Below are positions 1,676-61,421 of a stretch of 64,000 nucleotides of DNA, in pieces. This DNA is from a virus. The first letter of the stretch is position 1. Every line of letters starts with the position of its first letter. The DNA lies in the IMG/VR virus record IMGVR_UViG_3300034061_005227, positions 34,378-98,377 of that record. The stretch is one strand, 5' to 3'. Below the pieces are notes generated by a model. That model was given only the letters and a program-made list of their open reading frames with translations. It did no database searches and was not told where the DNA came from. Position numbers and translations under genes: made by a program.

Positions 1676-3298
1676 ATGAAAAGAATACTACAAGAAAAGA
1701 AGATAATTGAGATACTGAAAGAATACAACAACAAGTATGGTGTATTGTTAGAAGCATCTAAACTCAAAATATTAACTGATAAAGTTGGTTTCAGTGAACC
1801 AATCGCAAAAATATTCGATGAATTATGTGGCCCTTTAGCTATATGGATGGCCAACAAATTATACAAACATTATGTTCAAAGAACTAAGAGTTATAATGTG
1901 GAAGGTAATATGACTCCACAAGAAATAAAAGAGTTTACTATTAGTGAAATTAATAAAATACATACACCAACATTAACTAGAATTATTATTCCAATGATGG
2001 ATTATATCCGTGTTGGATTAAATGGAAACAAGTCATCACTTGAAGATGATAAATGGTCAGAGATTTTTGAAAAACAAAAACAATGGCATGATAGTTTAGG
2101 TGTAGGTGAGGGAAAAATCAACTATATTGAAAATGCTCCAATTTTAATTGATTTTAGGAATGAAGATGGTGAAGGTTTTTATTGGGCTGATTTGAATGTT
2201 AAAAACTCCCCTGAAGAATGTGAAAGAATGGGTCATTGTGGAAGAAGTTCATATGGATATCTATATTCATTAAGGAGTGATAAAAAGTTACCAGGAGGAA
2301 AGTTTAAGATAAATAAAAGTCATGTTACAGCTTCAATTGGAACTGATGGAATATTATATCAAATGAAAGGGCCTAGAAATGAAAAACCAAAAGAAGAGTT
2401 TCACAAATATATACAACCATTATTCTATCTTTTAGGTGGTGGAGGTGAAGAGGATGATTATTTAATCCAAGGTTTTGGAACTGAATATGCCGCACAACAA
2501 GATTTCAAACTTACAGATTTACCAAACCAAACAATAAGAGAACTTTATAGTAATAGACCTGAATTATTCAATACAAGAAGTTTACAAAGAAAATTAAGTG
2601 AGATGGGTATTGTTGAAGTTCAACCACTACAAACAACATTTACATTAGAAATAGACCCAAAAGATGTTGGTGATTATTTATCAGGTGACTATGTTTATAA
2701 AACTTATGGTAGTGCAAAAGACCAAAAAGTAAAAAGAGTGTATTTCTATGAAACAATAATGTCTGATGACGCTTGGGAAATGTGGGATAACTATGATGCA
2801 GATTGGAAATCCGCTTTAGAATATAATGTAGATTCAGAGAACGAAAAGAAAATTGAGGAAATCATCAATAGTATGATAGAAAAACAAGGTGGTGAAGTTG
2901 ATGAAGATATGAGTTTGGTTGATAAGATTGAAGAATATGATGAAAACTATGATATAAGAAATGCTATTAGTAGTAGTATTAATGAAGTTGAAAGTAATGA
3001 ATATGTCAAATACTTAAGAGATACCATCAAAGATGCCTTAAATGAACTTGGTAATGTATTTGAGTTTACTAATGATAATATCAAAATACAAGTTGATTTG
3101 AATGATTTTGGCTTTCCTGAAGATGAATTGGACGAATACTATGAAAATTGTTATGATGACCCAGCTTGTGTTTTTAGAGAATTGGTGAGTGAAGATAATA
3201 TTGATTTACCAAAACCAAGTTTCGATGACAGATGGTATCCAAGTATTGATGAAGATGACTTCAATCAATATTTAAGTGACAGATTATACGATATATAA
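1676..3298 (+). CDS. Leader-tagged PcfJ-like protein, 540 aa
   Basis: The frame is open from 1580, but the ATG at 1676 follows a promoter box and gives the basic N-terminus MKRILQEKKIIEILKEYNN, ending GVLLEAS, like the leaders of this region (LxE site). At about residues 175-265 there is a PcfJ-like pattern: an ECERMGHCG motif, then YSLRSD, a beta strand with ASIGTDG, and QMKGPRNEKP. PcfJ-like domains occur in polyvalent proteins of phages and conjugative elements. The rest is very acidic, including the C-terminus. It is followed closely by the metallopeptidase gene, probably as one transcript. The PcfJ assignment rests on motif resemblance only. Confidence 0.6.
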   Translation: MKRILQEKKIIEILKEYNNKYGVLLEASKLKILTDKVGFSEPIAKIFDELCGPLAIWMANKLYKHYVQRTKSYNVEGNMTPQEIKEFTISEINKIHTPTLTRIIIPMMDYIRVGLNGNKSSLEDDKWSEIFEKQKQWHDSLGVGEGKINYIENAPILIDFRNEDGEGFYWADLNVKNSPEECERMGHCGRSSYGYLYSLRSDKKLPGGKFKINKSHVTASIGTDGILYQMKGPRNEKPKEEFHKYIQPLFYLLGGGGEEDDYLIQGFGTEYAAQQDFKLTDLPNQTIRELYSNRPELFNTRSLQRKLSEMGIVEVQPLQTTFTLEIDPKDVGDYLSGDYVYKTYGSAKDQKVKRVYFYETIMSDDAWEMWDNYDADWKSALEYNVDSENEKKIEEIINSMIEKQGGEVDEDMSLVDKIEEYDENYDIRNAISSSINEVESNEYVKYLRDTIKDALNELGNVFEFTNDNIKIQVDLNDFGFPEDELDEYYENCYDDPACVFRELVSEDNIDLPKPSFDDRWYPSIDEDDFNQYLSDRLYDI

Positions 3299-3333
3299 TT
3301 TTACTAAAATTAAAAAAAATACGAATTGGTAAT

Positions 3334-3984
3334 ATGAGAACGAACTTAAATGAAAGTGTAAACCAAATGTTGAAAAATATGGGTTTAGAAACAATAACTG
3401 AAGCTCGTATGAGTAGACAAGCTGTAAGAGAAGTTGTAAGAGATATAATAAAGATATTAAAAAGAGGTGAAGAAGGTTCTTTTATATTACCTGAGAACCC
3501 CGATGAAGATTTTTATTCATTTAATAACTACCCAGTTCAATTTAGTGTTGAATTACATTTAGTATTCAATCCTAATACTTTGAGGTTTATGACAAATGGA
3601 AGTTATAGTTTGGAAGATGATGTTGTTGAAGTAAAAATAATAGTTAATCCAAATAAATTGGAAGGACAATTATATGAGATTATAGAAGAATTAAACAATC
3701 TTATTGCTCACGAATTGGAACACGGATTACAAGAGTATCACGGGGAATTCAATTTAACTAGAAAAAAGAAAGAAAAAAAAGGTAAGAAATATTATATGTC
3801 ACCTGAAGAATTGGGGGCACAAATACAAGGATTTAGAAGAGTGTCAAAACTACAACAAACTCCATTTGAAGATGTTGTTAGAAAGTGGTTCAAAGACAAT
3901 CGTGAGATTCATAATATGAATCAAAAAGATGAAGAAAAAGTAATCCAAACCATATTAGATTACCACGAAGAAAAATACGGATAA
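3334..3984 (+). CDS. Leader-tagged zinc metallopeptidase-like protein, 216 aa
   Basis: The N-terminus (MRTNLNESVNQMLKNMGLE, then TITEARM) resembles the family C leader and ends in an ITE site. The core has HELEHGLQEY, an HExxH zinc motif, with a downstream glutamate in a SPEELGAQIQG segment as possible third ligand. From the TITEAR segment to the C-terminus it is related to the C-terminal half of the 637-aa protein at 11363, which carries a different leader. Starts 35 bases after the PcfJ-like gene with no promoter box between them. Substrate unknown. Confidence 0.6.
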   Translation: MRTNLNESVNQMLKNMGLETITEARMSRQAVREVVRDIIKILKRGEEGSFILPENPDEDFYSFNNYPVQFSVELHLVFNPNTLRFMTNGSYSLEDDVVEVKIIVNPNKLEGQLYEIIEELNNLIAHELEHGLQEYHGEFNLTRKKKEKKGKKYYMSPEELGAQIQGFRRVSKLQQTPFEDVVRKWFKDNREIHNMNQKDEEKVIQTILDYHEEKYG

Positions 3985-4033
3985 AATTAACCAAAACTTA
4001 ATGTAGATATATTGACAATGTGAATTATAATTC

Positions 4034-6926: not shown

Positions 6927-7223
6927 TTAAAATTTACCAAATCCTTTATTTTTAGGTTTCACACATCTTTTAAGTAACTCACCAATATAATATGATAATT
7001 TTTCTTTTTCATCCTCATCTAAGGTATCTTCATCCCAAATTAAGTTATCAAAATCATAAAGTTTATTTTGAATTTCATCCAAATCTGATTCATCTTTATC
7101 CAAATCTGATTCAATTTTACTTAACATTTTTTTATAACTCTTCATAGATTCTTCATCCTCTTTGATTACTCTTTTAACCAATCTAGTTAAATCTCTTTCA
7201 GTCAATCTTACTATCTTTTTCAT
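6927..7223 (-). CDS. Family A leader protein, 98 aa
   Basis: Textbook family A leader: the first 20 residues are MKKIIRLTERDLTRLVKRVI, followed by KE, then a very acidic coiled-coil-like body (DLDKDESDLDEIQNK). If cut after IKE, a ~76-residue acidic product would be released. An ATATTTAT box lies 26 bases upstream on the same strand. No known domain; read as a small packaged protein by its leader only. Confidence 0.7.
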   Translation of the reverse strand: MKKIVRLTERDLTRLVKRVIKEDEESMKSYKKMLSKIESDLDKDESDLDEIQNKLYDFDNLIWDEDTLDEDEKEKLSYYIGELLKRCVKPKNKGFGKF

Positions 7224-10366: not shown

Positions 10367-11359
10367 ATGAAACTACAAAAAATTATCAGAAACATTTTGA
10401 TGGAAGAAACTACTTCAATTAGTAAAGAAGTTGAATATCTACTTGGGAATCAAATCTATGTTGACGAGATATACAAACAATTAAGAGAAATACACCAAAA
10501 CAATTCAAGAAATAACAAAGAAAATGTTCTAACATTCATCCAAGTTTTCTCAAAAAAATTAGATACCTTTTTTAATCAAATATTTTTAACAGGAACAAAT
10601 GCTGAAAAGATATTAAATCTAATTAACAAAACATCAAATTCAGAGGTATCTCCATTATTAGAAAGTGAATCAACTAGTAGTTTGGGGTTTGAAAAGTTTA
10701 ATGAGTATTTTAAGTATATGTACTACTTGTACAATGATATTCAAAAAGTTGTAAACGAAATCAAAGAAACCCCAACATCAGATATCAATACTTTGAAACC
10801 AAAAATTGAAAGATATTACAATTTAACAATCAAAGATAACAACTCAATGTTAGAGTTAATAAAAGCATTATTCCAATATCTTAAACAAAGTTATGGTAAT
10901 ATAAGTTCAGGTCAAACAACCAAGTCAACTGAAACACAAGGAGGATTTAATATTGATTGGAGTACCAAACAAATTGTTAAAAGATATAGTGACTCAACAA
11001 TAATATTCTTATCACCAGAAAAAGTATTGGAAAGAGTTGGTAAAGATATGGGTTCAGGTTTTGATATAAGAAATCAAGGTGTAAGAATTGGGGATAGATT
11101 AGAAAAGGCAATGGAATATCTGAAAAATCCAAATGTCGAAGCATACCAACCAACAATGTTATATGTTGAAAGTTTTGAGTATGATAAGAATAGTCAAAAA
11201 CAATATTATGATGTACCAAAAATTGGTATAAGTGATGGAAGACACAGATTATTAGCAGCATACAACTTAGGACTTAAAAGTTTCCCATTCGAAGTTTTCA
11301 ACAGAGATGAAGAACAACAAATTAAGGACTTAAAATATTTGGAATCAACATTAAAGTAA
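10367..11359 (+). CDS. Leader-tagged ParB-like nuclease-fold protein, 330 aa
   Basis: Family B leader (MKLQKIIRNILMEETTS), a helical middle region, and a C-terminal ParB/sulfiredoxin-like core with KIGISDGRHRLLAAYNLGL, the conserved DGRHR motif of that fold. ParB-like domains in phage and plasmid proteins bind or cut nucleic acid, or hydrolyse nucleotides. First gene of a rightward operon running to 17171. Activity is inferred from the motif alone. Confidence 0.65.
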   Translation: MKLQKIIRNILMEETTSISKEVEYLLGNQIYVDEIYKQLREIHQNNSRNNKENVLTFIQVFSKKLDTFFNQIFLTGTNAEKILNLINKTSNSEVSPLLESESTSSLGFEKFNEYFKYMYYLYNDIQKVVNEIKETPTSDINTLKPKIERYYNLTIKDNNSMLELIKALFQYLKQSYGNISSGQTTKSTETQGGFNIDWSTKQIVKRYSDSTIIFLSPEKVLERVGKDMGSGFDIRNQGVRIGDRLEKAMEYLKNPNVEAYQPTMLYVESFEYDKNSQKQYYDVPKIGISDGRHRLLAAYNLGLKSFPFEVFNRDEEQQIKDLKYLESTLK

Positions 11360-11362: not shown

Positions 11363-13276
11363 ATGAAACTACAAGAACAAATAAATAGAATACACGAAAT
11401 GATGGGACTTCTTACTGAAGTATATAATCCTAATGAGGTTCGGTACAAATATGTCGATGAAAAAAAAATAGTTACGTCAGAAAAATTTGACGAATTGAAA
11501 AATACATTCAAGGAATACCAACAATTCATATGGATTTTGAAAAAATTAGAATCAAATTGTATTTCGTATAATAAAATACCTGATTTTGTGGAATATTTCA
11601 AAATTTTCGATAAACATAAAAAAAATTTTCCAATAAAAGATTTAGGTCAGATAAAAACTTGTTCAGATGTCAAAAATTTTATTTCAATATCAAATGAATT
11701 AATTGATAAAATTTCATTTGAAGATGAACATTTTATAAATTTTTCTGATATCAAAAAACTAAATGAAAATTTTATTGAATATATGGGTGTCCATAGTGGA
11801 TATCAAGTTTTTGTAATTCCTCATCTTGACTATAATCTTGAGTACGAATACATGTATGAACCTATGTACAAAGCATACAAGAATATATTGGGGGATTGTG
11901 AAAATCGTAATAGGAATAATTATGTTAGATTTTGTACATTAACAAATAAACGAAAATTTGTAGACTACATAAATAAAGATTATCTTGTTGTTTTCCATCA
12001 AAAAAATAATCCTGAAACTCCCATACAAATTAGCCCCTTTTATGACTCAGAGTGTAAAAACAAAAATAATAAATTCGATGAATTTTCAGATACTTGTGAA
12101 CAACTAATGAAAATAGCAAGAGATTTAGCACCAAAAGCTCAAAATAATTTTCTTGAAAAGTTATCGAAAAAAGAAGAGGAAAAAGAATTGGAAAAAAGAA
12201 AAAAAGAAGAGGAGGAAAGAAAAAAAGAAGAGGAGGAAAGATTGGCTTGGACTGAAAACATAACACAAGCAAAAATAGATGAATTAGAAAGTATTTATGC
12301 TCCCTCAATAGTGGATTACGGATTGTTTGAAAAAATGGTAAAATTGTATCCAAATTATGAAAAATTGAGTTGGTTATTGAAAAGAATGGAATTAGGTTGT
12401 ATTTCATATTATGATGTTGAAAATTATATTGAATATTTCACAACCTTTGAAAATAAAAGAGACCTCTATCCAATCAAAAATTTAAAAAATATTAAAATTT
12501 GTGATGATGTTTATGAATTTGTTAGGACATCCAAAAATTTGAAGAATTCAAATTTGAACGAACAAATAAATAGAATACACGAAATGATGGGAATATCCAA
12601 GGATGTTTTGACTGAAGGAAGATATAGTCAAACCATATTACAGATTTGGAGAGATATAAAAAGAGAGTTAATGGATTTCATCAGGGATGAAGAATCAACA
12701 GAACTTGAATGGGAGGAAGAATATTTCCAAGAAGAATTCGACTATGAAGATTTTATGGATGATGAAGAATATGATGACGAAGAGGAGGAAGAACAGTATT
12801 CAACAACTACTTTTACTGTGAGGCTTACAGCTATAACTGAAGATATACGCACACCATATGATATTCATGCTGAACAAAAGTGGGACGATGAAGATAGCAT
12901 AGATGTTGTTAATTTACAGATTTATATTGATACGAATTTCAAGATGGAGAATCTCAATAAATTGTTTGCTGAGTTAAAAGATGTATTAAGACACGAAATA
13001 GAACATTTATATCAATCTGAGAATCCATATAAAAAGGTCGAAGAAATACCCACCGATACATTTGCCGAAGAAGTATTAACACCAAAAGAAAAGGATGCTT
13101 ATTTACAAGGTTTTTATACTCAGGCAAAAACAAGGAAAATGAAAATGGATGATATTATCGATGAATGGGCGGATGAAAGAGAAGAATTATTCAGTTCAAT
13201 TGAGGAAAAAGAATATGTGAAAAAAGAATTGATTAAACACGGAAAGAAATTATTACCACAAGCAAAATGGAGATAA
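11363..13276 (+). CDS. Fusion of two leader-tagged units ending in a metallopeptidase-like domain, 637 aa
   Basis: The N-terminus is a family C leader (MKLQEQINRIHEMMG, then LLTEV). Two related ~90-residue domains follow (about 20-110 and 300-395; each with CISY...YFxxF and FPIKDL or YPIKNL), separated by a lysine/glutamate coiled coil (about 270-295). At about residue 400 a second, internal family C leader appears (NEQINRIHEMMG, then VLTEG), followed by a domain with RHEIEHLYQ (HExxH) related to the 216-aa protein at 3334. It reads as two tagged genes fused in frame. The C-terminus overlaps the next start by 10 bases. Confidence 0.65.
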   Translation: MKLQEQINRIHEMMGLLTEVYNPNEVRYKYVDEKKIVTSEKFDELKNTFKEYQQFIWILKKLESNCISYNKIPDFVEYFKIFDKHKKNFPIKDLGQIKTCSDVKNFISISNELIDKISFEDEHFINFSDIKKLNENFIEYMGVHSGYQVFVIPHLDYNLEYEYMYEPMYKAYKNILGDCENRNRNNYVRFCTLTNKRKFVDYINKDYLVVFHQKNNPETPIQISPFYDSECKNKNNKFDEFSDTCEQLMKIARDLAPKAQNNFLEKLSKKEEEKELEKRKKEEEERKKEEEERLAWTENITQAKIDELESIYAPSIVDYGLFEKMVKLYPNYEKLSWLLKRMELGCISYYDVENYIEYFTTFENKRDLYPIKNLKNIKICDDVYEFVRTSKNLKNSNLNEQINRIHEMMGISKDVLTEGRYSQTILQIWRDIKRELMDFIRDEESTELEWEEEYFQEEFDYEDFMDDEEYDDEEEEEQYSTTTFTVRLTAITEDIRTPYDIHAEQKWDDEDSIDVVNLQIYIDTNFKMENLNKLFAELKDVLRHEIEHLYQSENPYKKVEEIPTDTFAEEVLTPKEKDAYLQGFYTQAKTRKMKMDDIIDEWADEREELFSSIEEKEYVKKELIKHGKKLLPQAKWR

Positions 13277-22061: not shown

Positions 22062-22081
22062 ATTCAAATTATATTATCTAC

Positions 22082-22089
22082 ATAAATAC
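22082..22089 (-). promoter_or_regulatory. Late-type box GTATTTAT
   Basis: Minus-strand box 20 bases before the first gene of the family D operon. Confidence 0.55.
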
Positions 22090-40937: not shown

Positions 40938-40940
40938 ATA

Positions 40941-40976: not shown

Positions 40977-40995
40977 TAATAATTATCCTTTTTTT

Positions 40996-41373: not shown

Positions 41374-41413
41374 AATTTATTTTTTAATTTTTTTTATTTT
41401 CTATTATTTTATA

Positions 41414-41421
41414 ATAAATAT
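41414..41421 (-). promoter_or_regulatory. Late-type box ATATTTAT
   Basis: Minus strand, 40 bases before the start at 41373. Confidence 0.5.
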
Positions 41422-41451
41422 GTTTATCTTGTAAAAAAAAACGATGAGATT

Positions 41452-46970: not shown

Positions 46971-46984
46971 AAAAAAAACAAAAA

Positions 46985-48296: not shown

Positions 48297-49130
48297 TTAA
48301 ATGATTGCTTCAGTAAGTTTTTTTGTAAGATTCAATTCATAAGCTCTTGCCAATCTTGTAAGGCCACAACCCCATCCAAATCTTGGGAAGAAATCCAAAG
48401 ATAAGAAATGTTCCAATTCTTTTTCTACTCTTTCCTTACCAAATAATTCAAAAAGTTTTGCTGAGTAGTTCCCACCTTCGATTGTGTAGAACATTTCTTT
48501 CATACTTTCTTTATCACAACTTCTTTCAGCAGAACCGATTGTTTCTTGACCGAAAAGGATAACATCAACCTTTTGGAATTTGTCACCTTCACCCTTTTGC
48601 ATATTCCAAAAAGGATTTGTTCTCAATGGGAAGTTTTGAAGTGAGATAGAATCACCGATTTCATTCCACATTTTTGTTTCGTGTTCAGCTTCAAGGATTT
48701 CAGTTCCGTATTTTTCACAAAGTTCATTATAATCTACAACTATTGGAATATCAAATCCCAAATATTCTAACATTTCCGCTTGAAGTTTAACCATATCTTC
48801 TTTAGTTCCTTTTGTTTCAACTTCGAACATAGGGAAGATTAAGTCGTGACGACCAGGGATTGGGTTTGCTTCTTGTCTGTATGATGTGGAGATACAATAT
48901 ACACCAGGAAATTCAGGATTTAGAAGTAATTCATATTCCAACCACATTTGACCTGTTTGTGGTAAAGGCCAAATTTCACCTGAATATTCAAATTTTGTGA
49001 TGCTATGTGGATTTTCACAAGCGGCAAGGATTGAAAGTCTAGATTGTGTTGGAACCTCCAAGAAACCTTTGGCTTGGAAAAAGTTTCTCATCTTTTGTAC
49101 TAACTCGTTGTAGATTTGTGTGTTTTTCAT
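48297..49130 (-). CDS. Class II synthetase-fold enzyme, asparagine-synthetase-like, 277 aa
   Basis: A catalytic domain of the AspRS/AsnRS type without an anticodon-binding domain. Visible motifs: motif 1-like helix region with GFLEVPTQS, motif 2 with STSYRQEANP then RHDLIFPMFEVE, and motif 3 GWGCGLTRLARAYEL. Proteins of this size and build include the archaeal-type asparagine synthetase related to AsnRS, which makes Asn from Asp. The leader peptide upstream is Asn-rich, which fits an asparagine role. Alternative: amino-acid activation of another acceptor. Lies behind a promoter box, leader peptide and terminator. Confidence 0.75.
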   Translation of the reverse strand: MKNTQIYNELVQKMRNFFQAKGFLEVPTQSRLSILAACENPHSITKFEYSGEIWPLPQTGQMWLEYELLLNPEFPGVYCISTSYRQEANPIPGRHDLIFPMFEVETKGTKEDMVKLQAEMLEYLGFDIPIVVDYNELCEKYGTEILEAEHETKMWNEIGDSISLQNFPLRTNPFWNMQKGEGDKFQKVDVILFGQETIGSAERSCDKESMKEMFYTIEGGNYSAKLFELFGKERVEKELEHFLSLDFFPRFGWGCGLTRLARAYELNLTKKLTEAII

Positions 49131-51726: not shown

Positions 51727-52254
51727 TTATTCACCTTTAACTAAAGCCAAAGCTCTTTTCAGGTATTCTTTCGCTCTTGGTGATGGAGTTAATTCATCAT
51801 CTTTAGTTTGAAGATTTAAAACTCTCTCAATATCTTTAACAAGTTCAGTTCCGTGTTCGTTTTCTTTGTATAATTCAATAATTTTGTCCATAGCTTTATT
51901 ACAACCACCTGTTGTTTCATCGTAATAATTTTTGTTTCTGAACTTATTTAAATGGTGCATCATATCGTAAGCTAAGTGAGAACCACCATCTTTGATGTCT
52001 TTGAATAATCTTAAATTATTCAAAATACCTAAAGTATCTACCATAGAATTAACTCCCATTTTTCTTTTTGTAACACCAGGTGCGTATGTTACATACTCTC
52101 CAGCATTTCCTACAATTTCCTCCAATGGCATAATATTTTCAGGAACACATCTAACTTTTTTTTCTTCCTTTGGTTCAGACGTTTCCATTTGTTCCATTAA
52201 TTTTTGTCGGATAACTTTACGTATATTAGATTCTTTTATATTGTAACCTTTCAT
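51727..52254 (-). CDS. Leader-tagged protein, 175 aa
   Basis: Family B-like N-terminus (MKGYNIKESNIRKVIRQKLM then EQME) followed by an acidic/basic linker and a helical domain with two cysteines. No family recognised. Late box 14 bases upstream on the same strand; ends in a structured 3' segment and terminator. Confidence 0.6.
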   Translation of the reverse strand: MKGYNIKESNIRKVIRQKLMEQMETSEPKEEKKVRCVPENIMPLEEIVGNAGEYVTYAPGVTKRKMGVNSMVDTLGILNNLRLFKDIKDGGSHLAYDMMHHLNKFRNKNYYDETTGGCNKAMDKIIELYKENEHGTELVKDIERVLNLQTKDDELTPSPRAKEYLKRALALVKGE

Positions 52255-52599: not shown

Positions 52600-53226
52600 A
52601 TGAGTACCAAGTTAGATAACTTAATAAAGAAAGTTCTAAGAGAATCACTAAATCCGGTAATGAAATTGACTGAACATTGTATGATTTCTGAGGATTTAAA
52701 ATATCATTTGGAAAATAAGATTCCATTGAATGAAAATATTTTTAGAATATACTCTGAGAAATATTTTAAGTTAATTAATGAGGTAAGAAACTTATATTAT
52801 GATGGTAAAATAGAATTGAATGAAGAGGACACTTGGTTGGTTGAGTCAGATTTAGGTAAAAAAGTTTTATTAGAAAATGGGGATGAGGTATGGTTAGATG
52901 CTCCAATGTATGAAGAGGAAGTTGAAGAATTATTGTTTGAAGCAAAACATCACGGAAAAAATGTTAAACTTAATTCACCATTTAGAACACCAGGAGGACC
53001 TAAAAAGTTTGCGGTATATGTTAAAACACCAAAAGGAACAATCAAGAAAGTAACATTTGGTGACCCCAACCTAAAGGTGAGAAATAGAAATCCAAAAGCA
53101 GCAAAATCATTTAGAGCAAGACATAAGTGTGACCAAAAGAAAGATAGAACAACTGCTGGTTATTGGAGTTGTAATGTTGGTCGACACGCAAAAAAATTGG
53201 GTTTAAAGTCAAGTGCTAGTTGGTAA
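52600..53226 (+). CDS. Leader-tagged protein with phage FGDP/RARH-type domain, 208 aa
   Basis: Family B-like leader (MSTKLDNLIKKVLRESLNPV, LRE site). The C-terminal ~80 residues have KFAVYVKTPKGTIKKVTFGD, then SFRARHKCDQKKD and GYWSCNVGRH. I recognise the combination (strand pair, FGDPN, FRARHxC, YWSC) as a domain seen in many T4-like and marine phages near capsid-assembly genes, with a likely structural zinc site. Ends in a TAATG overlap with the cupin gene. Confidence 0.65.
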   Translation: MSTKLDNLIKKVLRESLNPVMKLTEHCMISEDLKYHLENKIPLNENIFRIYSEKYFKLINEVRNLYYDGKIELNEEDTWLVESDLGKKVLLENGDEVWLDAPMYEEEVEELLFEAKHHGKNVKLNSPFRTPGGPKKFAVYVKTPKGTIKKVTFGDPNLKVRNRNPKAAKSFRARHKCDQKKDRTTAGYWSCNVGRHAKKLGLKSSASW

Positions 53227-53495
53227 TGGAAAAACTACCTTTCGAACAAGAAATAATTGGTAATAAACGATTAAGAACATTTTCACCTGATGTTGACGAT
53301 GAGGAATTAAAATGGCATCGTGATAGGGAAAATAGATTAGTTGAAATATTGGATGGGGATGATTGGTTTTTACAAATGGACAACGAATTCCCTAAAAAAT
53401 TAGTTATTGGTGAAAAGTATTATATACCTGAAGGTGTATATCATAGAGTAATAAAAGGTAATCAAGAATTAAAAGTCCTGATTACCTTTGTTTGA
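53226..53495 (+). CDS. Small cupin-like protein, 89 aa
   Basis: ATG at 53226 in a TAATG overlap. The sequence KWHRDRENRLVEILDGDDWF, FPKKLVIGEKYYIPEGVYHR follows the small-cupin pattern (HxxxxE, G...P-x-G-x-x-H), a metal-binding jelly-roll. Enzyme or ligand binder; substrate unknown. Convergent with the GMP-reductase-like gene, whose stop is 3 bases away. Confidence 0.65.
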   Translation: MEKLPFEQEIIGNKRLRTFSPDVDDEELKWHRDRENRLVEILDGDDWFLQMDNEFPKKLVIGEKYYIPEGVYHRVIKGNQELKVLITFV

Positions 53496-53497
53496 TA

Positions 53498-54523
53498 TTA
53501 CTTATTAAATCTTTTCAAAGCATTTTCTGTTATAAACACATATTCGGTTTCTTTGAGCTCCTCAAGTGTTTTTGAATTAGTATAAGACATTGCTGATTTT
53601 AGATAGTCTACAAGATTTTCAATCCATTTATCTAATGTATATTCTACCTTATTGTATTTCGTAATACCCTCAGATGTAATCAACTTATTTTTACCCCACT
53701 TTCTTTGTACTTCTTTTGTACTCATTCCTCTAAATTTCTTATACATAAACTTTCTAAGGAATTTGAAATTATTCCAAACATATTTGGAGGTATTTTCATT
53801 TAATGGAATGAGTTTACCTAAATAAACAGGAGAACAAGATTCCAATGTTTTGTTTAATACTCCACCTAACATCACATAATCGGCACCAAGGGCTAATGCT
53901 TTGATAATATCATCATAGTTTCTAAATCCACCATCAGCAACAATATTTGTTGTATAACCTCTTTTCTTTTTGATGTTATAACACTCTGATATTAAAGAAG
54001 CCATTGGATAATGCACACCAGTATTTGCTGAAGTTAAACATCCTGAACCACCACCAATACCAACTCTAATATAATCGACACCAAGTTCGGCAAATAACTC
54101 GTATGTATTAGGATTTGCAATATTTCCAATCATTAATTGGTTTGTACTTTTCATATTTTCAGTGAAATACTTACACAAGTCATATAGTTTTGACATATGA
54201 CCATTTGCAATATCAACCAATATCCTTTTTTGATGAACCATAGTACCATAAGTTTTATGTTTATGTATCATTAATTCAAAGTCTGATAAAGAAATTGACC
54301 AAAATGTATTGTCGTAGTATGGCCTTTCACCTCTAGGTAAACATACCTCAAGGTTTTCATCTAGGAATATTTCGTAATTTTCTTTGTTAACTACAGTGTC
54401 CATTGGACTAACTATGATTGGGAGAGACCCCTCTGGTGTGAAAATATTAATTTCACTTCTTGATGATATTGTGGAAATTGTTTCAGGAACTAGTGTAATG
54501 TCCTTAAAGTCGAATTTTTGCAT
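53498..54523 (-). CDS. IMP dehydrogenase/GMP reductase-like enzyme, 341 aa
   Basis: A (beta/alpha)8 barrel of the IMPDH/GMPR family: start FDFKDITLVPETIST, IIVSPMDTVV, MIGNIANPNTYELFAELGVD, VGIGGGSGCLTS with the catalytic loop cysteine, and IVADGGFRNYDDIIKALALG then DYVMLGGVL. It lacks CBS domains, so it is nearer GMP reductase in size. It would interconvert purine nucleotides during phage growth. Start is typical. No neighbouring purine genes. Confidence 0.8.
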   Translation of the reverse strand: MQKFDFKDITLVPETISTISSRSEINIFTPEGSLPIIVSPMDTVVNKENYEIFLDENLEVCLPRGERPYYDNTFWSISLSDFELMIHKHKTYGTMVHQKRILVDIANGHMSKLYDLCKYFTENMKSTNQLMIGNIANPNTYELFAELGVDYIRVGIGGGSGCLTSANTGVHYPMASLISECYNIKKKRGYTTNIVADGGFRNYDDIIKALALGADYVMLGGVLNKTLESCSPVYLGKLIPLNENTSKYVWNNFKFLRKFMYKKFRGMSTKEVQRKWGKNKLITSEGITKYNKVEYTLDKWIENLVDYLKSAMSYTNSKTLEELKETEYVFITENALKRFNK

Positions 54524-54575
54524 AATTTATCCTTTTTGATTTAAGGATAAAATATAAATCTTGAAAACTCAAATA

Positions 54576-55199
54576 TTATGATTTGAATCTTTTAACTAAT
54601 TTGGATAATAATTCTTTGAAGATGATACCTGAAAGTGTTAAACCTGTAAAACTAATAATTCTGATAGCTAATTGTTTCAAATCCACATTTTCAGTACTTC
54701 CATCTTCAACCATTTGATATATCATAGGTAATATTGGGATAATAAAAGTATAGCTTAACATATTTGTTATTTTGTGGAAAGTTAAACCCAAGCTATCAAT
54801 AAAATTGATAAATGTATTTGTGAATGTATCAGTTTTTTTCAATATTCTATCAAAAATCCCACTCAAACCATCCTCTTGTATTTTTGTATAGATTTTTGTA
54901 ACAATTTTTTTGTTGTCTATAAAATATGTTGCAATTATACCAATCAAAATTAAAACTAACTCGTTCTCATCAATCTCAGGATATTTTCCTCTTACGAAAT
55001 CTTCAACAGGACCCATAAAACCACCAATACCAGCACCCCAAGTTAATAAAAATTGTAAGTTCATACCAATTTGGTCTTGAGCTTCATTTACAATTTTTTT
55101 TACCCTTTCAGTATTTTGTTTGATTAAATTACCAAGTTCCTCACCAGTACTTTCAGTGATAATTATTCTTTTTTGTTGTTCGGTGATTATAATTTTCAT
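54576..55199 (-). CDS. Leader-tagged membrane protein, 207 aa
   Basis: ATG at 55199 gives the family D leader MKIIITEQQKRIIITESTG; the longer start at 55232 would begin over the promoter palindrome. Four hydrophobic segments (about 45-60, 78-96, 143-162 and 178-198) with basic connecting loops. No family recognised. A tagged polytopic membrane protein is unexpected for head packaging and may be an inner-membrane entry protein. Confidence 0.55.
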   Translation of the reverse strand: MKIIITEQQKRIIITESTGEELGNLIKQNTERVKKIVNEAQDQIGMNLQFLLTWGAGIGGFMGPVEDFVRGKYPEIDENELVLILIGIIATYFIDNKKIVTKIYTKIQEDGLSGIFDRILKKTDTFTNTFINFIDSLGLTFHKITNMLSYTFIIPILPMIYQMVEDGSTENVDLKQLAIRIISFTGLTLSGIIFKELLSKLVKRFKS

Positions 55200-55203
55200 A
55201 ATA

Positions 55204-55227
55204 ATAAATATTGTATAAATATTTATA
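55204..55227. promoter_or_regulatory. Bidirectional late promoter palindrome
   Basis: TATAAATATTTATA (55214-55227) is a perfect palindrome with the late box on both strands: ATATTTATA rightward (55219-55227) for 55243; ATATTTAT leftward (55215-55222, and again 55204-55211) for 55199. Confidence 0.65.
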
Positions 55228-55242
55228 TACAAAACTAAAATT

Positions 55243-55539
55243 ATGATTAATCCAGAATTAAAGGTTGGTGATAGAGTTATTCTACTAACTATGGAAGGTG
55301 AACCAAATATGACTTACGAAGGAGGTGTTGTTGTTCCTATAGATAAGTTTAATAATCCATATGTAGTTGTGTTTGGACACAAACAATATAATGTCAAATG
55401 GGATAATGGCAGAACTTATAATTTATTAGAAGATGCTGATAAGTGGATGTATGAAAAAGATTTTAACAAAAAAAAGAAAAAGAAAAAAATAGAAGAAAGT
55501 TATACCATAACAAAAAAACAATTATTGGATAACATTTGA
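55243..55539 (+). CDS. SH3-like small protein, 98 aa
   Basis: The N-terminal ~65 residues look like a small beta-barrel (VGDRVILLTMEGEPNM, YVVVFGHKQYNVKWDNGRTY), then a lysine run (NKKKKKKKIEE) and a C-terminal ITKKQLLDNI. No leader. No family recognised; may bind nucleic acid through the basic tail. Confidence 0.6.
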   Translation: MINPELKVGDRVILLTMEGEPNMTYEGGVVVPIDKFNNPYVVVFGHKQYNVKWDNGRTYNLLEDADKWMYEKDFNKKKKKKKIEESYTITKKQLLDNI

Positions 55540-55558
55540 TTAAACAAAATAGTTTATA

Positions 55559-55567
55559 GTATTTATT
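55559..55567 (+). promoter_or_regulatory. Late-type box GTATTTATT
   Basis: 13 bases before the ATG at 55581; probably drives the pilot-protein operon to 59684. Confidence 0.55.
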
Positions 55568-55580
55568 AAAAAAAAACAAT

Positions 55581-57047
55581 ATGCAAAAGTTTATAATTTC
55601 TGAATCAGATAGAAGTCATATTTTAAATTTATATGGTATCGTAAAGGATGAGGTAAGACCTTTACAAAAATTGTTAGAGTGTAAGTACACACCTGATGGA
55701 AAATATATTATGTATGAAAACAAAATATATTCTTGTCAAACAGGTGAAGAAGTTCCAATTATGGAAGGTTGGAGTATCAGTGATATTCTTCATACAGGGG
55801 CTGATTTATTGTCTGCTGGAATGGACTTCGTAATTCCCGGTTCAGGAGCTATCGTAGATGCTTTGAATGCCCTCAGTTACATTATAGAAGCTCAATTTAA
55901 ACCTGCTGAGGAGAGAGATTCACTATACACTATGGCAGCAATAACTTTTGCTTTTGTAATATTACCCGGTCCACTACAAGCTGTTGCCCCAGTTTTAAAA
56001 AATGCAATAAAAACAGGTAGAGGATTTGCTTCAAAGGCTGTTTTGGGCGCGTTAGAAATTATTGGAAAAAATTTAGGAACAATTCTTGGTGGTATAAAAA
56101 ATTTACTTCAAAAAGCATTACAATCAAAGTTAGCTAGAAATATTTTAGGTAAACATGGAGATAATATATCCAAGTATATTCAAAAATTTTACGATAGAGT
56201 AAAAACTATTTTTGATGGTGTTTTGGCAAAAGCTAAAGGTACAAAAACACCTGGAGTTAAAGCCACTGCCGATGATGTTGTTAAAAAACCTGGTTTGTTG
56301 AAAACAACAGCAAAAGAACTAGGACAACTAACATTAAGTAAACAACTTAAAGTTAGGTTGCAAAACTTCTTTAAAAAATTACCAAAAATAAAAAGTGGTC
56401 CTCTTTTTTTGAGGAAGTTGGGGTTTGTTCCTGGTAAAACTTATCGTTTAAAAGGTGCTGCCTTCAAAACGGACAAAATAATGATTGATAATGTCACCGA
56501 TTCTAAAGTACTTGTTACTTATATTTCAAAAAATGGTGAAAAAATACCCGCAGAAATGTCTATCGAGAAATTTACGAAAGATGCCATTGGAGCACCTTGG
56601 AGTAGAAGAGGGTATTCTGTTGCAGTTCCATTTTTTGTCAAAAGAACTGCTGATTTGTTAAATAGTGATGGTAGTGATATAAATTATGATATACTAAATA
56701 GTATACCTGATGCTAACCCTGACCAAACATCTGCAGAATCATTAGCATTTATGGGTGAAGAGGTTGCTGAATTTGAAGGTGATACTGGTGCTTACACTAT
56801 TCAAGGGAATGTAAAAACATTCCAAGATGGGTTACAATTGTTAGGATATAAGTTAGCTAGATTTGGTGCGGATGGAAAATTTGGTGCTGAAACACAAGAA
56901 CAATTAAAAAAATTCCAAACAGATAATGGATTAACAACCTCAATTGGTAAAATGGATAGATTGACAGCGAAAAAAATAGCTGAATTACTAAAAACAAAAA
57001 ATATTCCTAATTCTCAGGAAATACAAAATCAACTTAATAAAATTTAA
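55581..57047 (+). CDS. Leader-tagged pilot-like protein with peptidoglycan-binding domain, 488 aa
   Basis: Family E leader (MQKFIISESDRSHILNLYGI, then VKDE). Next a small domain with two cysteines (about 35-60), then a hydrophobic Gly/Ala-rich region (about 70-190; SAGMDFVIPGSGAIVDALNA, FAFVILPGPLQAVAPVL) with helices able to insert in membrane. The C-terminal ~75 residues are a PG-binding-1 domain (FQDGLQLLGYKLARFGADGK, FGAETQEQLKKFQTDNG). Wall binding plus membrane-active helices suits a protein that forms or guides the DNA entry channel. Starts a six-gene rightward group. Confidence 0.65.
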   Translation: MQKFIISESDRSHILNLYGIVKDEVRPLQKLLECKYTPDGKYIMYENKIYSCQTGEEVPIMEGWSISDILHTGADLLSAGMDFVIPGSGAIVDALNALSYIIEAQFKPAEERDSLYTMAAITFAFVILPGPLQAVAPVLKNAIKTGRGFASKAVLGALEIIGKNLGTILGGIKNLLQKALQSKLARNILGKHGDNISKYIQKFYDRVKTIFDGVLAKAKGTKTPGVKATADDVVKKPGLLKTTAKELGQLTLSKQLKVRLQNFFKKLPKIKSGPLFLRKLGFVPGKTYRLKGAAFKTDKIMIDNVTDSKVLVTYISKNGEKIPAEMSIEKFTKDAIGAPWSRRGYSVAVPFFVKRTADLLNSDGSDINYDILNSIPDANPDQTSAESLAFMGEEVAEFEGDTGAYTIQGNVKTFQDGLQLLGYKLARFGADGKFGAETQEQLKKFQTDNGLTTSIGKMDRLTAKKIAELLKTKNIPNSQEIQNQLNKI

Positions 57048-57050
57048 AAT

Positions 57051-57587
57051 ATGAACGCTTATTTTTTCAAAATGAACCAAGCAGAACGAAATGATATTTT
57101 AGACCAACACAGAAAGGTTTATGATGGTTTCGTGACCACATATGGACAACAAATAAATCAACAACCATTATATGTCCAAGATTTTGCAAATGACAAACAA
57201 GGTCTTACTGTAAGTAACAAGGGTGTTGTCAAAACATATACAAATATGAATATCAACGAATCTGATGCAATGACAGGTGCAAAATACTTACCTGATATTT
57301 CATTTGATTTTGGTGGCCCTGATGATGAATTTGAGTCAGAATATGTTGGTTTTGATGGTAGAGATATGATTGGTGATAGTAGTTCTGATATGGAACACGG
57401 AACATTTGATGATGAAGATGACGAGGTTACATATGAATTACATTTTGATGATGAAGATGATGAACCATCATTCAGTAAAATTTCAGTATTGGGTTTTGAC
57501 GAAAATTTAGATGAGGAGATGGTTGAACCATTACAAGAGCAAGTCAACAAAACATTAGAAATGTTTAAAAAATTTAAAAATTACTAA
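57051..57587 (+). CDS. Family E-like leader protein, acidic, 178 aa
   Basis: Leader variant KMNQAERNDILDQHRKVYDG, like that of the 178-aa protein at 26685. Then a linker and a very acidic region (FDDEDDEVTYELHFDDEDDE) and a helical, glutamate-rich tail. It may be the paralogue of 26685, with matching length and layout. 3 bases after the pilot-like gene. Confidence 0.6.
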   Translation: MNAYFFKMNQAERNDILDQHRKVYDGFVTTYGQQINQQPLYVQDFANDKQGLTVSNKGVVKTYTNMNINESDAMTGAKYLPDISFDFGGPDDEFESEYVGFDGRDMIGDSSSDMEHGTFDDEDDEVTYELHFDDEDDEPSFSKISVLGFDENLDEEMVEPLQEQVNKTLEMFKKFKNY

Positions 57588-58145: not shown

Positions 58146-59684
58146 ATGAATACGGAATTAAAAATACAAAGTATAACATATGATTTACAATATTTTTTCA
58201 CTGATAAAGGTATTGTAAAAATTTCATTAGATGAAAATGAAAATATCCTCGAATATAACTCTCAGAATCTAAAATTAGGTCTCGATATTTTAAAGGAAAA
58301 TCTCCAAGTTAAATTTGATATGGGATTGATAAATGAGAATGATTATATTTATTCCGCAAGAAAGTTCCTATATGAATCAATGAATATTGGGAGTATCAAA
58401 AATCAAATTTCTGTGATTAATGAGTGGGAAAATAAATATGGAAAAAATCTTTTGTTTATCAATGAAAGTTCAGATAGAACTGATTTAAGAAAAGTTTTTG
58501 AAAATAGTTGGAAAGGTTTAAATACTTTATATGCTGAAAGGTTGATTGACTCACTAATATTAGAAAGAACTTGGTTACAATGGGGTTGGGATAATATAAA
58601 ATCTACGATTTCAAAAGCATTTACTTGTGCTAAAGGTAGTGGATATATTGATTGTTTTATGGAAGGTTTAAGAACAATCGCAACCTCATTTTTGGGGGTA
58701 GCTGTTTTGACTGGTGTATCATTCATCCCTGTAATAGGAACAATCCCTAACGTAATAATTTTTGGAGCGTTATTAATTTATGATATCTATAAAATGATGT
58801 CTGGAAAAAAATGGAGTATTTCAGATATCATAGTTGATATTGTATCATTATTGGCACCAGCTTTAGCTAAAGGTTTAGGAGCATATACAAAAGGTTTGAC
58901 TAACTTTTATGGATTAGGAACGTTGGCCGGGAAGGGCACATTTGGAAAAGTAATCCAAACAATTTCTAAAGGTATTGGAAAATTAGCAACTTATATTGGT
59001 GAAAGTGTAGCTTACTTTTCAAGTAAGTTAGGTATAAAATGGTTAGGTGATATGGCAAAATATGCGTATAATGGTCTTACTAAAATAAGTTCAGATATTT
59101 CAGCGGGACAAAAGGCCGCTAATAAAGAAACTAAGAAATCTGAAAAATCTAAGTCAGCTACTGAATTACTTAAAGACGTGCCTGAAAGTTGGAAAAAATA
59201 TCCTTGTGTTGCGTTGTCTAAGAATGTAAAACAAAAGAAAACAAGTGATGGTACTATAGTTTATGAAGGTGGTGGTTTTGTGTGGTTTGATAATGGTAAA
59301 AAAATTGACCCCAAAACTGAGGAGGTTTCATCATATTCTTGTACACCAGATGGAAAAGTTAAATCTGGTGAATCTGAAAAAAAATCATTAGGTTTATTTG
59401 GTGCTCTGTTAGGACCTGATGGACTGAAAAAACAAATTATGTATAATAAATGTGATGATTTCCCATTTGAAGTTGGTTGTATTAATGATAAAATAAAGAG
59501 AGTCCAAAGTTGTTTGGAAGTCACAATTGATGGTAAGTTTACACCAACATTAAAAGAAAAAATGGTGGAAAAGGGTTATGGTGAAATCCTTACAACATCA
59601 GTATATGATAAAATTATGAAAGATTGTGGTGCTGCACCTGAAGGTTCTGCATTACCTACAGCAGGATTTGCAAAAGACATATAA
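58146..59684 (+). CDS. Pilot-like membrane-active protein, 512 aa
   Basis: N-terminal ~150 residues are soluble and helical without a standard leader. A hydrophobic region (about 180-235; LGVAVLTGVSFIPVIGTIPN) and Gly/Lys-rich helices follow. The C-terminal third has four cysteines in a small domain (PCVALSKN, YSCTPDGK) and a degenerate PG-binding-like end (IKRVQSCLEVTIDGKFTPTL). Similar layout to the 488-aa protein but diverged. Its stop overlaps the promoter box of the next gene. Confidence 0.6.
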   Translation: MNTELKIQSITYDLQYFFTDKGIVKISLDENENILEYNSQNLKLGLDILKENLQVKFDMGLINENDYIYSARKFLYESMNIGSIKNQISVINEWENKYGKNLLFINESSDRTDLRKVFENSWKGLNTLYAERLIDSLILERTWLQWGWDNIKSTISKAFTCAKGSGYIDCFMEGLRTIATSFLGVAVLTGVSFIPVIGTIPNVIIFGALLIYDIYKMMSGKKWSISDIIVDIVSLLAPALAKGLGAYTKGLTNFYGLGTLAGKGTFGKVIQTISKGIGKLATYIGESVAYFSSKLGIKWLGDMAKYAYNGLTKISSDISAGQKAANKETKKSEKSKSATELLKDVPESWKKYPCVALSKNVKQKKTSDGTIVYEGGGFVWFDNGKKIDPKTEEVSSYSCTPDGKVKSGESEKKSLGLFGALLGPDGLKKQIMYNKCDDFPFEVGCINDKIKRVQSCLEVTIDGKFTPTLKEKMVEKGYGEILTTSVYDKIMKDCGAAPEGSALPTAGFAKDI

Positions 59685-59692
59685 TATTTATA
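59684..59692 (+). promoter_or_regulatory. Late-type box ATATTTATA
   Basis: 13 bases before the ATG at 59706. Confidence 0.6.
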
Positions 59693-59705
59693 GTTAAATT
59701 AGGAT

Positions 59706-61421
59706 ATGAATAAGTATAAAATTTTCGAACAATATAAACAAGATGAACCTTTAGAAAAGTTCAAAGCTATAGAAAACCCAGTTTTGAGAGCAGCTGCCGC
59801 GGCGAATTGTTTCCCTGAAGGATATGTAATTACTCAACATCCAGAAACAAATGAATTAGTTATTTCGGCTTTGAGTAAAAAACCTGAAAACGCGAACAAC
59901 AAGTTTGTTTATTACAAACCAGATTACACTTTAGAATATCGTACAACAAATGATAAAACAGGTAAAGTAGCTAGAACTTCAAAATGGAGTTGTTATGCTT
60001 TGTTAGAACGAACAAATCCTGAGACATCAAAAGTTCAACAAGAATTGTTATCAGCTTTAGAAAATAGTTTAGGTTGGAAACAATTTGCAAGTGTACAAGG
60101 TAATGACATATTAAATTATGATATAACTGATGTTGCGAAAGACCCAGACTTAAAACCTGGTGGTATGTATTATAATGTTGTAAAAGGATTACAACAATAT
60201 ATGGATGATTTAGTTAGTTCTAATAGACCATTCTATATGTGGAAAACTAAAAAGAAGGGGGTTGGAATTAAAAAAATGGAAGATGAACAAAAAAGAATTT
60301 TAGCACTTCCTGAGTTTTCGGGGTACAAGATTTGTTCAGTACCTGAACCTGAAAAGGGACCTGACGACATTATCGACATCGACATTAAGTATCCTGATTA
60401 CTTTGAAAAAGGTACTAAACTTTGTAAGCCTATGTCTGATTTTTCCCCTAAACAGATTTATAGTAAAACCTTATCATTGGTAGAAAAACTAGGTAAAGGG
60501 GCTAACAAAAAAGATTGTAGAAACCTAATTTTGTCCTATTACGAATTGATTCAAAAAGAAATTCCAATTAACCAAAACACTATTGACAAAATAAAACCAA
60601 TTGTAAGAAATTGTTCAACTGCAATAAATTTTCCTGGTCTTAAAGATAAAATACAATATATGCAACGAATAAAAATTAGAGGTGGACAAGGTAATATATT
60701 AAATTATAGCCTTAAAGAATCAAAGAATGATGAACTTTCTACACTAGTATCAGAAAGTTTAACAAGATTGAAAATTCAAAAAACAAAGAAGTTTATTACT
60801 GAAGGAAGAGAAGTAAGAAAAAGAATTGAATTCATTTTCGAAAGTATTGAGGTAAAGAATAGAAAGGATATTGAACTATTAGCTGATTGTTTATTGGGTG
60901 AAATGGTAAGATTGAGAAACGAGGGGTTTGATGAAATGATAATCAGTGAACAGATGGGTTTATTATCAAACCTCACTAATTTTTTTACAGGTGGAAAAGG
61001 TGGTGACTTTTTATCAGGTCTAAAGGGTGCTGCAGGTGGAGGTTTAATGTCAACCGTTATTGAAACTATAGCAGGTGGTATCCTAAAAACAATGGGTATC
61101 GACCCTAAAGGAACTTTGGGTACTTTAATTTTAAAAACAATTACAAACCTAACACCAGCTGACTTCCCTAAATTAAGTGATTGTAGATTTGTTTCAGGTT
61201 TAATCACAAAAAGTGTAATGGAAACTATTGCGGCTGAAGCGACAAAAAGTATTGGTGGAAAAACTATGGTTGGAAGTTTTATCGAAAACACTCTATTCGA
61301 ATTAGGTGAAGAAAGTGAAATATTCCAATCAATTAAGAACTTTATTGGTGATAAAATTGTTTGTCCATACCTAGAAGGTAAAGGTGGAAATGTTTTATCA
61401 AGTATTTTTGGAAAAAAATAA
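59706..61421 (+). CDS. Large pilot-like protein with hydrophobic C-terminus, 571 aa
   Basis: The N-terminus (MNKYKIFEQYKQDEPLEKF) is a possible short leader. Several conserved-looking cysteines in the first 300 residues (NCFPEG, WSCYALLE, KICSVPEPE, LCKPM) recur in pattern in the C-terminal domain of the previous gene. A leader-like segment (KKFITEGREVRKRIEFIFES) lies near 360-380. The C-terminal ~130 residues are Gly-rich and hydrophobic (LKGAAGGGLMSTVIETIAGG). Third of three large membrane-active proteins. Terminated by a structured 3' segment. Confidence 0.6.
   Translation: MNKYKIFEQYKQDEPLEKFKAIENPVLRAAAAANCFPEGYVITQHPETNELVISALSKKPENANNKFVYYKPDYTLEYRTTNDKTGKVARTSKWSCYALLERTNPETSKVQQELLSALENSLGWKQFASVQGNDILNYDITDVAKDPDLKPGGMYYNVVKGLQQYMDDLVSSNRPFYMWKTKKKGVGIKKMEDEQKRILALPEFSGYKICSVPEPEKGPDDIIDIDIKYPDYFEKGTKLCKPMSDFSPKQIYSKTLSLVEKLGKGANKKDCRNLILSYYELIQKEIPINQNTIDKIKPIVRNCSTAINFPGLKDKIQYMQRIKIRGGQGNILNYSLKESKNDELSTLVSESLTRLKIQKTKKFITEGREVRKRIEFIFESIEVKNRKDIELLADCLLGEMVRLRNEGFDEMIISEQMGLLSNLTNFFTGGKGGDFLSGLKGAAGGGLMSTVIETIAGGILKTMGIDPKGTLGTLILKTITNLTPADFPKLSDCRFVSGLITKSVMETIAAEATKSIGGKTMVGSFIENTLFELGEESEIFQSIKNFIGDKIVCPYLEGKGGNVLSSIFGKK

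Follow-up and report, generated by a model that had tools for sequence, protein, structure and literature searches.

The DNA analysed here is a stretch of 64,000 nucleotides (hereafter the window), which corresponds to bases 34378-98377 of an IMG/VR virus record of 98,377 bases (IMGVR_UViG_3300034061_005227; G000). A preliminary description of the window had claimed that about 40 unrelated proteins, encoded between positions 1676 and 61421, begin with one of five families of short N-terminal leaders (A to E), and had interpreted these leaders as tags of a T4-style capsid-targeting system. We called all genes on the record, compared their N-termini and built profile models for the five leader families. 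The models recognised 37 tagged genes in the window, on both strands (six with leader A, seven with B, three with C, 14 with D and seven with E). Six further N-termini (genes at 1676, 3334, 29926, 35548, 51727 and 57051) are similar by eye and fail the models. The 37 genes come close to the claimed number of about 40. As argued below, the best reading of these genes is a greatly expanded capsid-targeting system of the T4 type. Packaging, cleavage and injection are predictions from sequence.

A second IMG/VR record, G007 (147,874 bases), overlaps positions 11084-64000 of the window in reversed orientation, with at least 99.97% identity over 52.9 kb. Because this overlap is nearly identical (six mismatches at most), we took the two records to be the same virus, of which G007 adds about 95 kb beyond the window. 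Leader-bearing genes were also looked for outside the window. The profiles matched 41 of the 148 genes in the 98-kb record and 40 of the 202 genes in G007, where five tagged genes, a scaffold-like protein among them, lie outside the window; together, the two overlapping records hold at least 46 tagged genes, the scaffold-position protein included. Tagged genes were also found in a 292-kb relative, G003 (59/343), and in G001 (12/528, with 390.5 kb of its 412.5 kb covered).

We conducted a chance test in which ungapped BLOSUM62 scores were calculated between pairs of proteins for residues 1-30, 31-60 and 61-90, after the removal of pairs with homologous cargo. Among the 123 proteins of at least 90 residues in the window's record, 46 pairs scored 50 or more for residues 1-30, compared with one pair for residues 31-60 and none for residues 61-90; the corresponding numbers for 291 proteins of G003 were 91, 0 and 0. 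Some of the lower-scoring N-terminal pairs are contributed by signal peptides. In addition, the leader profiles matched 252 of 1528 deduplicated proteins but only 9 of 5258 control segments starting at an internal Met; the former is not a natural rate, because many of these proteins come from loci that were chosen for holding leader A.

The boundary between B and C is gradual (MNLQExIRRI-), and a proximal [LI][TSN]E is common to A, D and E, so that on our reading the five families are probably two superfamilies. Given that the members of leader A were found by a DNA pattern spanning residues 1-12 only, and were then collected by a match to about those residues, the residues past about position 12 are unbiased by the search. 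All 95 N-termini with leader A (one gene counted twice at a stretch boundary, and some close homologues included) have a hydrophobic residue-x-E, at residues 20-22 in 78 cases and at residues 24-26 in 17; the 17 members with Glu at residue 26 have four extra residues, which is about one helical turn. Residues 1-20 are conserved save for a few positions, and residue 21 is free. In the 78 members of the first type, residue 20 carries 3.65 bits of information, residue 21 carries 1.45 and E22 carries 4.32, and the residues beyond carry 1.17 at most; the conservation of E22 in this table was selected, whereas the drop directly after it was not. The codons vary synonymously at invariant or common residues of leader A (TTA, CTT, CTA and TTG at L7, and at least five codons at R18), which shows that selection acts on the protein.

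Next, the stretch after the leader core was searched for [ILVM]xE and compared with equal stretches downstream. Such a distal site was found in 105 of 106 members of family A (9% downstream), 22 of 24 of E (23%), 14 of 18 of C (25%) and 33 of 56 of D (16%), with unparsed members dropped (seven in A, seven in E, six in C and none in D); family B stood outside this test, as the motif is part of its definition. It had been claimed that most leaders contain or end in (I/L)-x-E. In the window, (I/L/V/M)-x-E follows the leader core in 27 of the 37 genes, although for the seven B genes it belongs to the definition; by the test used, a distal site is lacking in eight of 14 D leaders, one of three C leaders and one of seven E leaders. 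Both the residue x and the residue past the cut are variable. Taken over all proteins, [ILVM]xE is enriched near N-termini by no more than about twofold, and this enrichment did not serve as the main test.

If the leaders are propeptides of the T4 kind, the virus should encode a matching protease, and the preliminary description had named a gp21-like protease in the genome as a check. A profile search found no Peptidase_S77 in the window's own 98-kb record. This is because the record is a fragment, as G007 settled: it carries a T4-type head module with a Peptidase_S77/gp21-type prohead protease (gene 56719-57441, domain 56857-57285, E 7.5e-24) and a Gp23 capsid protein (52857-54725), both identified by profile. 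A terminase (60972-62735), a portal protein (58957-60744) and, in the gp22 position, a scaffold-like protein (54762-56312) were named from the look of their sequences and from gene order only. The scaffold-like protein has a leader-like N-terminus, MRQEIKELVKESLNE↓Q (the arrow marks a predicted cut here and below), and proteins adjoining the capsid gene also bear such N-termini. In all nine records of the lineage in which it was read, the capsid protein has LINE↓A (seven) or LIYE↓A (two) near residue 60, and the capsid protein of Flavobacterium phage immuto has IVSE↓A. The mature chain of T4 Gp23, which is 456 of 521 residues, aligns downstream of this site, although the N-terminal part of the alignment is weak (i-Evalue 2); thus T4 loses 65 residues, at a similar place. 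By this analogy, LINE↓A is the predicted end of the capsid propeptide, and it has the same tripeptide form as the ends of the leaders.

The preliminary description had offered, as a way to be wrong, that the leaders form part of each folded domain. They do not, because recognised domains begin well after the leader (phage lysozyme at residues 101-222 of 228, HD at 87-157 of 205 and PG-binding at 410-465 of 488) and because leaders have been swapped between homologous cargoes. We found 11 pairs of homologous cargoes with different leader families (A-D three, A-B three, B-C two, B-E two and B-D one), alongside 40 further alignments between tagged and untagged proteins and 56 between proteins with the same leader. 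Independent swaps number fewer than 11, since the A-B and B-C matches, five in all, span just 36-61 residues and have cargoes in common. The clearest case is the lysozyme encoded at 33009-33695, which carries leader D, and its homologue at locus L021, which carries leader A (45% identity over 205 residues). The leaders are therefore swappable modules, as judged by the homology of the cargoes. The cargoes themselves had been described as unrelated, which needs qualification: they form 30 distinct groups in the window (blastp, 1e-3), but four paralogue groups account for 11 of the 37 cargoes.

The 140 longest of 204 tagged proteins of 110-650 residues were scanned with Pfam. The matches included phage lysozyme (4), ART-PolyVal (3), PG_binding (3), M23 peptidase (2), LysM (2), Recep_L (2), GNAT (2), HD (1), HAD (1) and PAP2 (1), and the 25 families listed summed to 36 member matches, with two more besides. 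Wall-degrading and host-modifying enzymes among the cargoes fit delivery by the virion.

A promoter-like motif precedes most tagged genes that start a unit. Among genes preceded by a gap of 40 nt or longer, TATTTAT occurs within 60 nt upstream of 17 of 19 leader genes compared with 18 of 58 others in the window's record (P 8e-6), and of 24 of 29 compared with 35 of 131 in G003 (P 3e-8). Since the motif was spotted in upstream sequences of the window's record that were also tested, G003 serves as the independent test. In both, the motif sits mostly 10-30 bases ahead of the start codon. In G003 it also precedes the genes for the tail sheath, tail tube, prohead protease, scaffold-position protein and endolysin. 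A PHROGs scan was made of 20 motif-bearing non-leader genes of G003 only (18 of the 20 longest, with the tail tube and prohead protease genes chosen in addition), and eight matched: sheath, tube, protease, endolysin, peptidase/endolysin, a weak tape-measure match, a family without an assigned function, and a homing endonuclease. Because the motif is shared with some tail and head genes, it suggests that the tagged genes are late genes. Read on the opposite strand, TATTTAT corresponds to most of the T4 late promoter TATAAATA; this T4-type promoter itself was tried as the promoter of the leader genes and was not enriched (5/41 compared with 12/107).

The T4 capsid-targeting sequence (CTS) is known mainly from T4 and its close relatives, and it has few clients. 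According to the accessible parts of the literature, gp21 of T4 cuts after L/I-x-E, the leaders of 10-19 residues on the internal proteins (IPs) are the CTS, and core proteins are cut in the same way (PMC9026906); the injected IPs have only the leader in common (PMC12373910), and Alt is an ADP-ribosyltransferase that is packaged in the head and injected (PMC9503650). In T4, processing is inhibited by an Asp at position 10 of the IPIII leader, although such a leader can still serve for targeting (PMC9026906). The system described here resembles that of T4 in its short N-terminal peptides, which end in (L/I)-x-E on otherwise unrelated proteins, in the gp21-type protease and Gp23 capsid protein of the phage, and in the ADP-ribosyltransferases among its cargo. 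The N-termini of T4 IPII and IPIII (MKTYQEFIAE), gp22 (MLKEQLIAE) and gp24 (MAKINELLRE) are of the same form as the leaders, and gp22 and gp24 are presumably cut exactly at these sites. Beyond I-x-E, no likeness between the leaders and the T4 CTS was seen in a comparison by eye only. The systems differ in scale and variety: the accessible part of one source gives three IPs (IPI, IPII and IPIII) plus Alt for T4 (PMC9026906) and that of another at least 10 IPs across T4-related phages (PMC12373910), whereas at least 46 genes are tagged here; and IPII and IPIII share one leader sequence, whereas there are probably two leader superfamilies here.

Other phages offer partial parallels. In phiKZ, 201phi2-1 and SPN3US, many head or ejected proteins are processed after x-E (S/A-x-E or A-x-E), and two propeptides of SPN3US have 20 and 24 residues; however, the remaining SPN3US propeptides have 111-254 residues, and a small set of shared, swappable leaders is not described for these phages in the accessible parts of the two articles (PMC10052503, PMC9026906). 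Polyvalent and MuF-fused effectors, which the consulted portion of PMC9503650 describes as thought to be delivered with the DNA, resemble the ART-PolyVal and peptidase cargo, but they are fused to each other or to head proteins (PMC9503650). Here, most effectors are separate and have a leader each, with one apparent fusion (11363-13276) that holds an internal leader. In the open-licence PubMed Central (PMC) full texts that were searched, there was no description of leader families with this number of genes, variety of types and swapping, and none of the five leader strings occurs in them. The principle is that of T4 and is already known; what seems to be new, judged from these texts, is that so many genes are tagged, that the leaders are of several types and that they have been swapped.

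Taken together, the protease, the tripeptide form at the predicted capsid propeptide end and the swapping make it likely that the leaders are propeptides, which would address proteins into a prohead core of the T4 type and be removed by the gp21-like protease after (I/L/V)-x-E; the targeting interpretation of the preliminary description thus gains partial support. Family D is weak as a cleavage tag (33/56 with a distal site overall, 6/14 in the window). We propose the following course by analogy with T4. Late in infection, the tagged proteins would be made alongside the virion proteins, as the shared promoter-like motif suggests. The leader, probably a helix, would bind the scaffold core, as in T4, and the N-terminus of the scaffold-position protein is of a similar kind. 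At maturation the protease would act on the capsid protein, the scaffold and the tagged cargo, cutting each after I-x-E at the predicted site. The freed cargo would remain in the head with the DNA. Some of it may enter the next host by ejection, and lysozymes, peptidases and ADP-ribosyltransferases could be active there, as the cargo families and the T4 precedent suggest. Given that the leaders are swappable modules, new cargo may be recruited by gaining a tag, if this is the direction of the exchange. A bolder proposal, which we make tentatively and would not yet rely on, is that the head is a general delivery vehicle for 40-60 different proteins, encoded by about one gene in four to six and delivered as infection begins. 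These would be loaded through at least two separate and interchangeable address codes, each with a binding site of its own on the prohead core.

If the propeptide reading is true, then dozens of unknown genes per genome become candidates for injected host-takeover and anti-defence proteins, and phage heads could be loaded with proteins by means of several new tags. A short sequence rule, in which a leader runs up to I-x-E and conservation is then lost, would allow probable virion cargo to be read from the genomes of huge uncultured phages. The reading is testable in immuto, a cultured relative.

Several observations weigh against this reading. By the test used, ten of the 37 leaders in the window are without a distal site, eight of them in family D. 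In leader A the predicted cut is usually followed by N, Q, E, M, D or S, whereas the capsid sites have Ala. At least about 100 of the 140 scanned proteins have no Pfam match at 1e-3, and PADLOC defence models gave eight families of one weak member each among the tagged proteins. TATTTAT is not in excess before operon-internal genes with small gaps (1/22 leader genes compared with 6/48 others in the window's record; 6/30 compared with 25/153 in G003), it precedes a GIY-YIG endonuclease gene, and in G003 neither the capsid gene nor the portal gene has it within 60 nt. S77 was found in only nine of 23 large records with leader A, many of the records being fragments, and in only eight of 13 virus records of a second set (G007 again included), in which three records of 209-215 kb are without it. 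AlphaFold2 models of two tagged proteins were discarded, as their mean predicted local distance difference test (pLDDT) scores were 48.5 (from one sequence) and 42.3 (from two). As a separate observation, a 269-kb relative (G029) has two Peptidase_S77 genes, at 31291-31773 and 233494-233940.

We also considered other explanations. The leaders might be uncleaved docking peptides for another assembly of phage or host, such as the tail, the membrane or a replication compartment, with (I/L)-x-E as a helix end. Many D leaders without a distal site would suit this notion, as would the fact that cleavage and head location are only predicted; however, conservation is lost directly after the invariant E, as a cut site predicts, the tripeptide is identical to the predicted propeptide end of the capsid protein of the same virus, and differently built leaders converge on it, and we therefore regard docking as improbable. 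It is a more serious, if still rather unlikely, possibility that the tagged proteins are components of the core or scaffold that stay in the head or leave it as fragments, rather than injected effectors. The scaffold-position protein and the capsid-adjacent proteins bear such N-termini, and T4 core proteins are cut likewise in the account given by the accessible part of PMC9026906. Yet the cargo includes lysozymes, M23 peptidases, ART-PolyVal, HD and GNAT enzymes, and its 30 groups in the window are more variety than a scaffold needs.

That the leader is a DNA-level element (a promoter, a translation start or a homology arm for recombination) translated by chance seems barely credible. Leaders do lie where genes begin, and they have moved from one cargo to another, but synonymous codons vary at their invariant or common residues, conservation stops at a residue, and an in-frame internal leader copy is kept inside the apparent fusion 11363-13276. 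Family D requires separate consideration. It may be a separate phenomenon, for instance an N-terminus through which a cluster of paralogues dimerises or is regulated, so that only A, B, C and E would be capsid tags; it has the lowest rate of distal sites, and nine of its 14 window genes are in paralogue groups. On the other hand, D is found on the lysozyme whose homologue carries leader A, and the proximal [LI][TSN]E common to D, A and E could itself be cut. We consider it unlikely that D is separate, though this is a contender to be taken seriously, and we remain unsure about this family and about whether each family is an address of its own or a dialect of one of two superfamilies.

As to the distribution of the leaders, the leader A pattern was found in 59 stretches on 54 viral contigs, the leader D pattern in at least 120 stretches and the strict form of leader C in six. 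A search of 84,980 cellular genomes with a less strict pattern for leader A gave one match, on a metagenome-assembled contig of 4 kb. This contig bears two further tagged genes by eye and is likely a misplaced piece of a phage. The best named matches to the capsid protein of G003 were an uncultured 484-kb phage, Microcystis phage Mel-JY01 and immuto. Judging by relatives, the host is probably a member of the Bacteroidota. Immuto (Flavobacterium phage vB_FspM_immuto_2-6A, with Flavobacterium sp. LMO8 as its laboratory host) has S77 and its own leader-like groups of four, three and two proteins; the cuts predicted in its tagged proteins come after FLVE, ILKE, IIKE or GIITE. The scaffold-position protein of immuto (40627-41868 of locus L118) ends in EQVSRWQKLAGIIK, which resembles the immuto leader EQFRRMQKLAGIITE; possibly this likeness reflects mimicry of a scaffold contact. 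The Bacteroidota phages crAss001 and phi38:1 have no S77, and in 50 kb of each there were no leader families, save for one pair in phi38:1 starting MARIKNT. Searches with tblastn of a leader A query and of the 356-residue leader E protein against named phages gave no match. Tenacibaculum phage pT24 was considered as a possible cultured relative and dropped.

The individual tagged genes of the window are as follows, with the leader family assigned by profile, the cut predicted, and the absence of a site judged by the distal-site test. The first is on the minus strand, 6927-7223 (leader A, 98 residues, RVIKE↓DEE, profile E 2.5e-15). A run of plus-strand B and C genes follows: 10367-11359 (B, 330 residues, NILME↓E), 11363-13276 (C, 637 residues, GLLTE↓V), 13267-14670 (B, 467 residues, RILKE↓S), 14667-14984 and 14977-15360 (B, 105 and 127 residues, both RILRE↓E), 15357-16304 (B, 315 residues, RILRE↓Q, without a Pfam match at 1e-3), 16306-16683 (C, 125 residues, no distal site) and 16680-17171 (C, 163 residues, MGVNE↓S). 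In the product of 11363-13276, leader C recurs internally at residue 397, and VLTE↓G and an HExxH motif come after this second copy; the protein is apparently a fusion of two tagged proteins in which the internal leader was kept. The product of 3334-3984 (plus strand; divergent leader C, ITE↓A, with HELEH; failing the models) is homologous to the second half of this fusion, internal leader included (blastp E 3e-11). Three tagged proteins have a DG(R/H/N)HR motif in common (10367-11359, near the C-terminus, 13267-14670 and 16306-16683); it presumably resembles ParB/sulfiredoxin-type domains, and Pfam gave no such match.

The minus-strand D cluster comprises 17172-17738 (188 residues, no distal site, a paralogue of the gene at 18508), 17738-18511 (257 residues, RLIKE↓S, with Recep_L-like repeats, in a five-member paralogue group), 18508-19083 (191 residues, no distal site), 19080-19430 (116 residues, no distal site, a paralogue of the gene at 19408), 19408-19806 (132 residues, no distal site), 19803-20375 (190 residues, LLIE↓G), 20372-21022 (216 residues, LIIE↓S), 21019-21612 (197 residues, LIIE↓N) and 21609-22061 (150 residues, LLIE↓N). 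The region at the end of this cluster (22068-22893, about 0.8 kb) has only frames of 65 and 44 residues, and the GC skew turns there.

On the plus strand, these are followed by 26173-26607 (A, 144 residues, RIISE↓Q), 26685-27221 (E, 178 residues, LIVE↓T), 27225-27842 (A, 205 residues, QTINE↓M, with the HD domain) and 27913-28983 (E, 356 residues, GILSE↓Q), and then by three D genes, 30239-30526 (95 residues, no distal site), 30539-30982 (147 residues, no site in the tested stretch) and 30979-31428 (149 residues, no distal site). The same strand carries 32012-32923 (A, 303 residues, KIIDE↓Q, with a weak tape-measure-like match), the leader D lysozyme gene 33009-33695 (228 residues, no distal site), 33699-34157 (B, 152 residues, ILLE↓E, whose L021 cargo homologue has leader D), 35337-35522 (a weak leader E, 61 residues, LLNE↓H, profile E 0.035), 39198-39500 (E, 100 residues, no site by the test used), 52600-53226 (B, 208 residues, KVLRE↓S, with cargo homologues in immuto and other marine phages) and 55581-57047 (E, 488 residues, PG_binding_1 at 410-465, with LLE↓C at residue 33 as the only, late candidate). 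The minus strand carries 35790-36626 (E, 278 residues, KIIE↓Q), 36639-37934 (E, 431 residues, KINE↓Q, with a weak VanY-like match at E 0.037, below the cut-off), 40996-41373 and 42208-43188 (A, 125 and 326 residues, both RVISE↓Q) and 54576-55199 (D, 207 residues, IIITE↓S). Two of the genes that fail the models have a possible leader B by eye: 1676-3298 on the plus strand (MKRILQEKKIIEILKEY) and 51727-52254 on the minus strand (KVIRQKLME↓Q).

Other genes of the window were also recorded. A full-length TonB-dependent outer-membrane receptor, with plug, barrel and CarboxypepD_reg domains, is encoded by the phage at 4060-6888 (plus strand), and distant homologues were found in metagenomic phage records, one of 634,780 bases. 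Two M54 (archaemetzincin-like) metallopeptidases are encoded on the plus strand (29036-29686 and 62119-62760), the first with a lipoprotein-like signal by eye. A PAS/GAF histidine-kinase-like protein (44847-47419, plus strand) is followed by a response-regulator receiver protein, and the minus strand encodes a class II aminoacyl-tRNA-synthetase-like protein (48297-49130) and a protein with an IMP dehydrogenase/GMP reductase domain (53498-54523).

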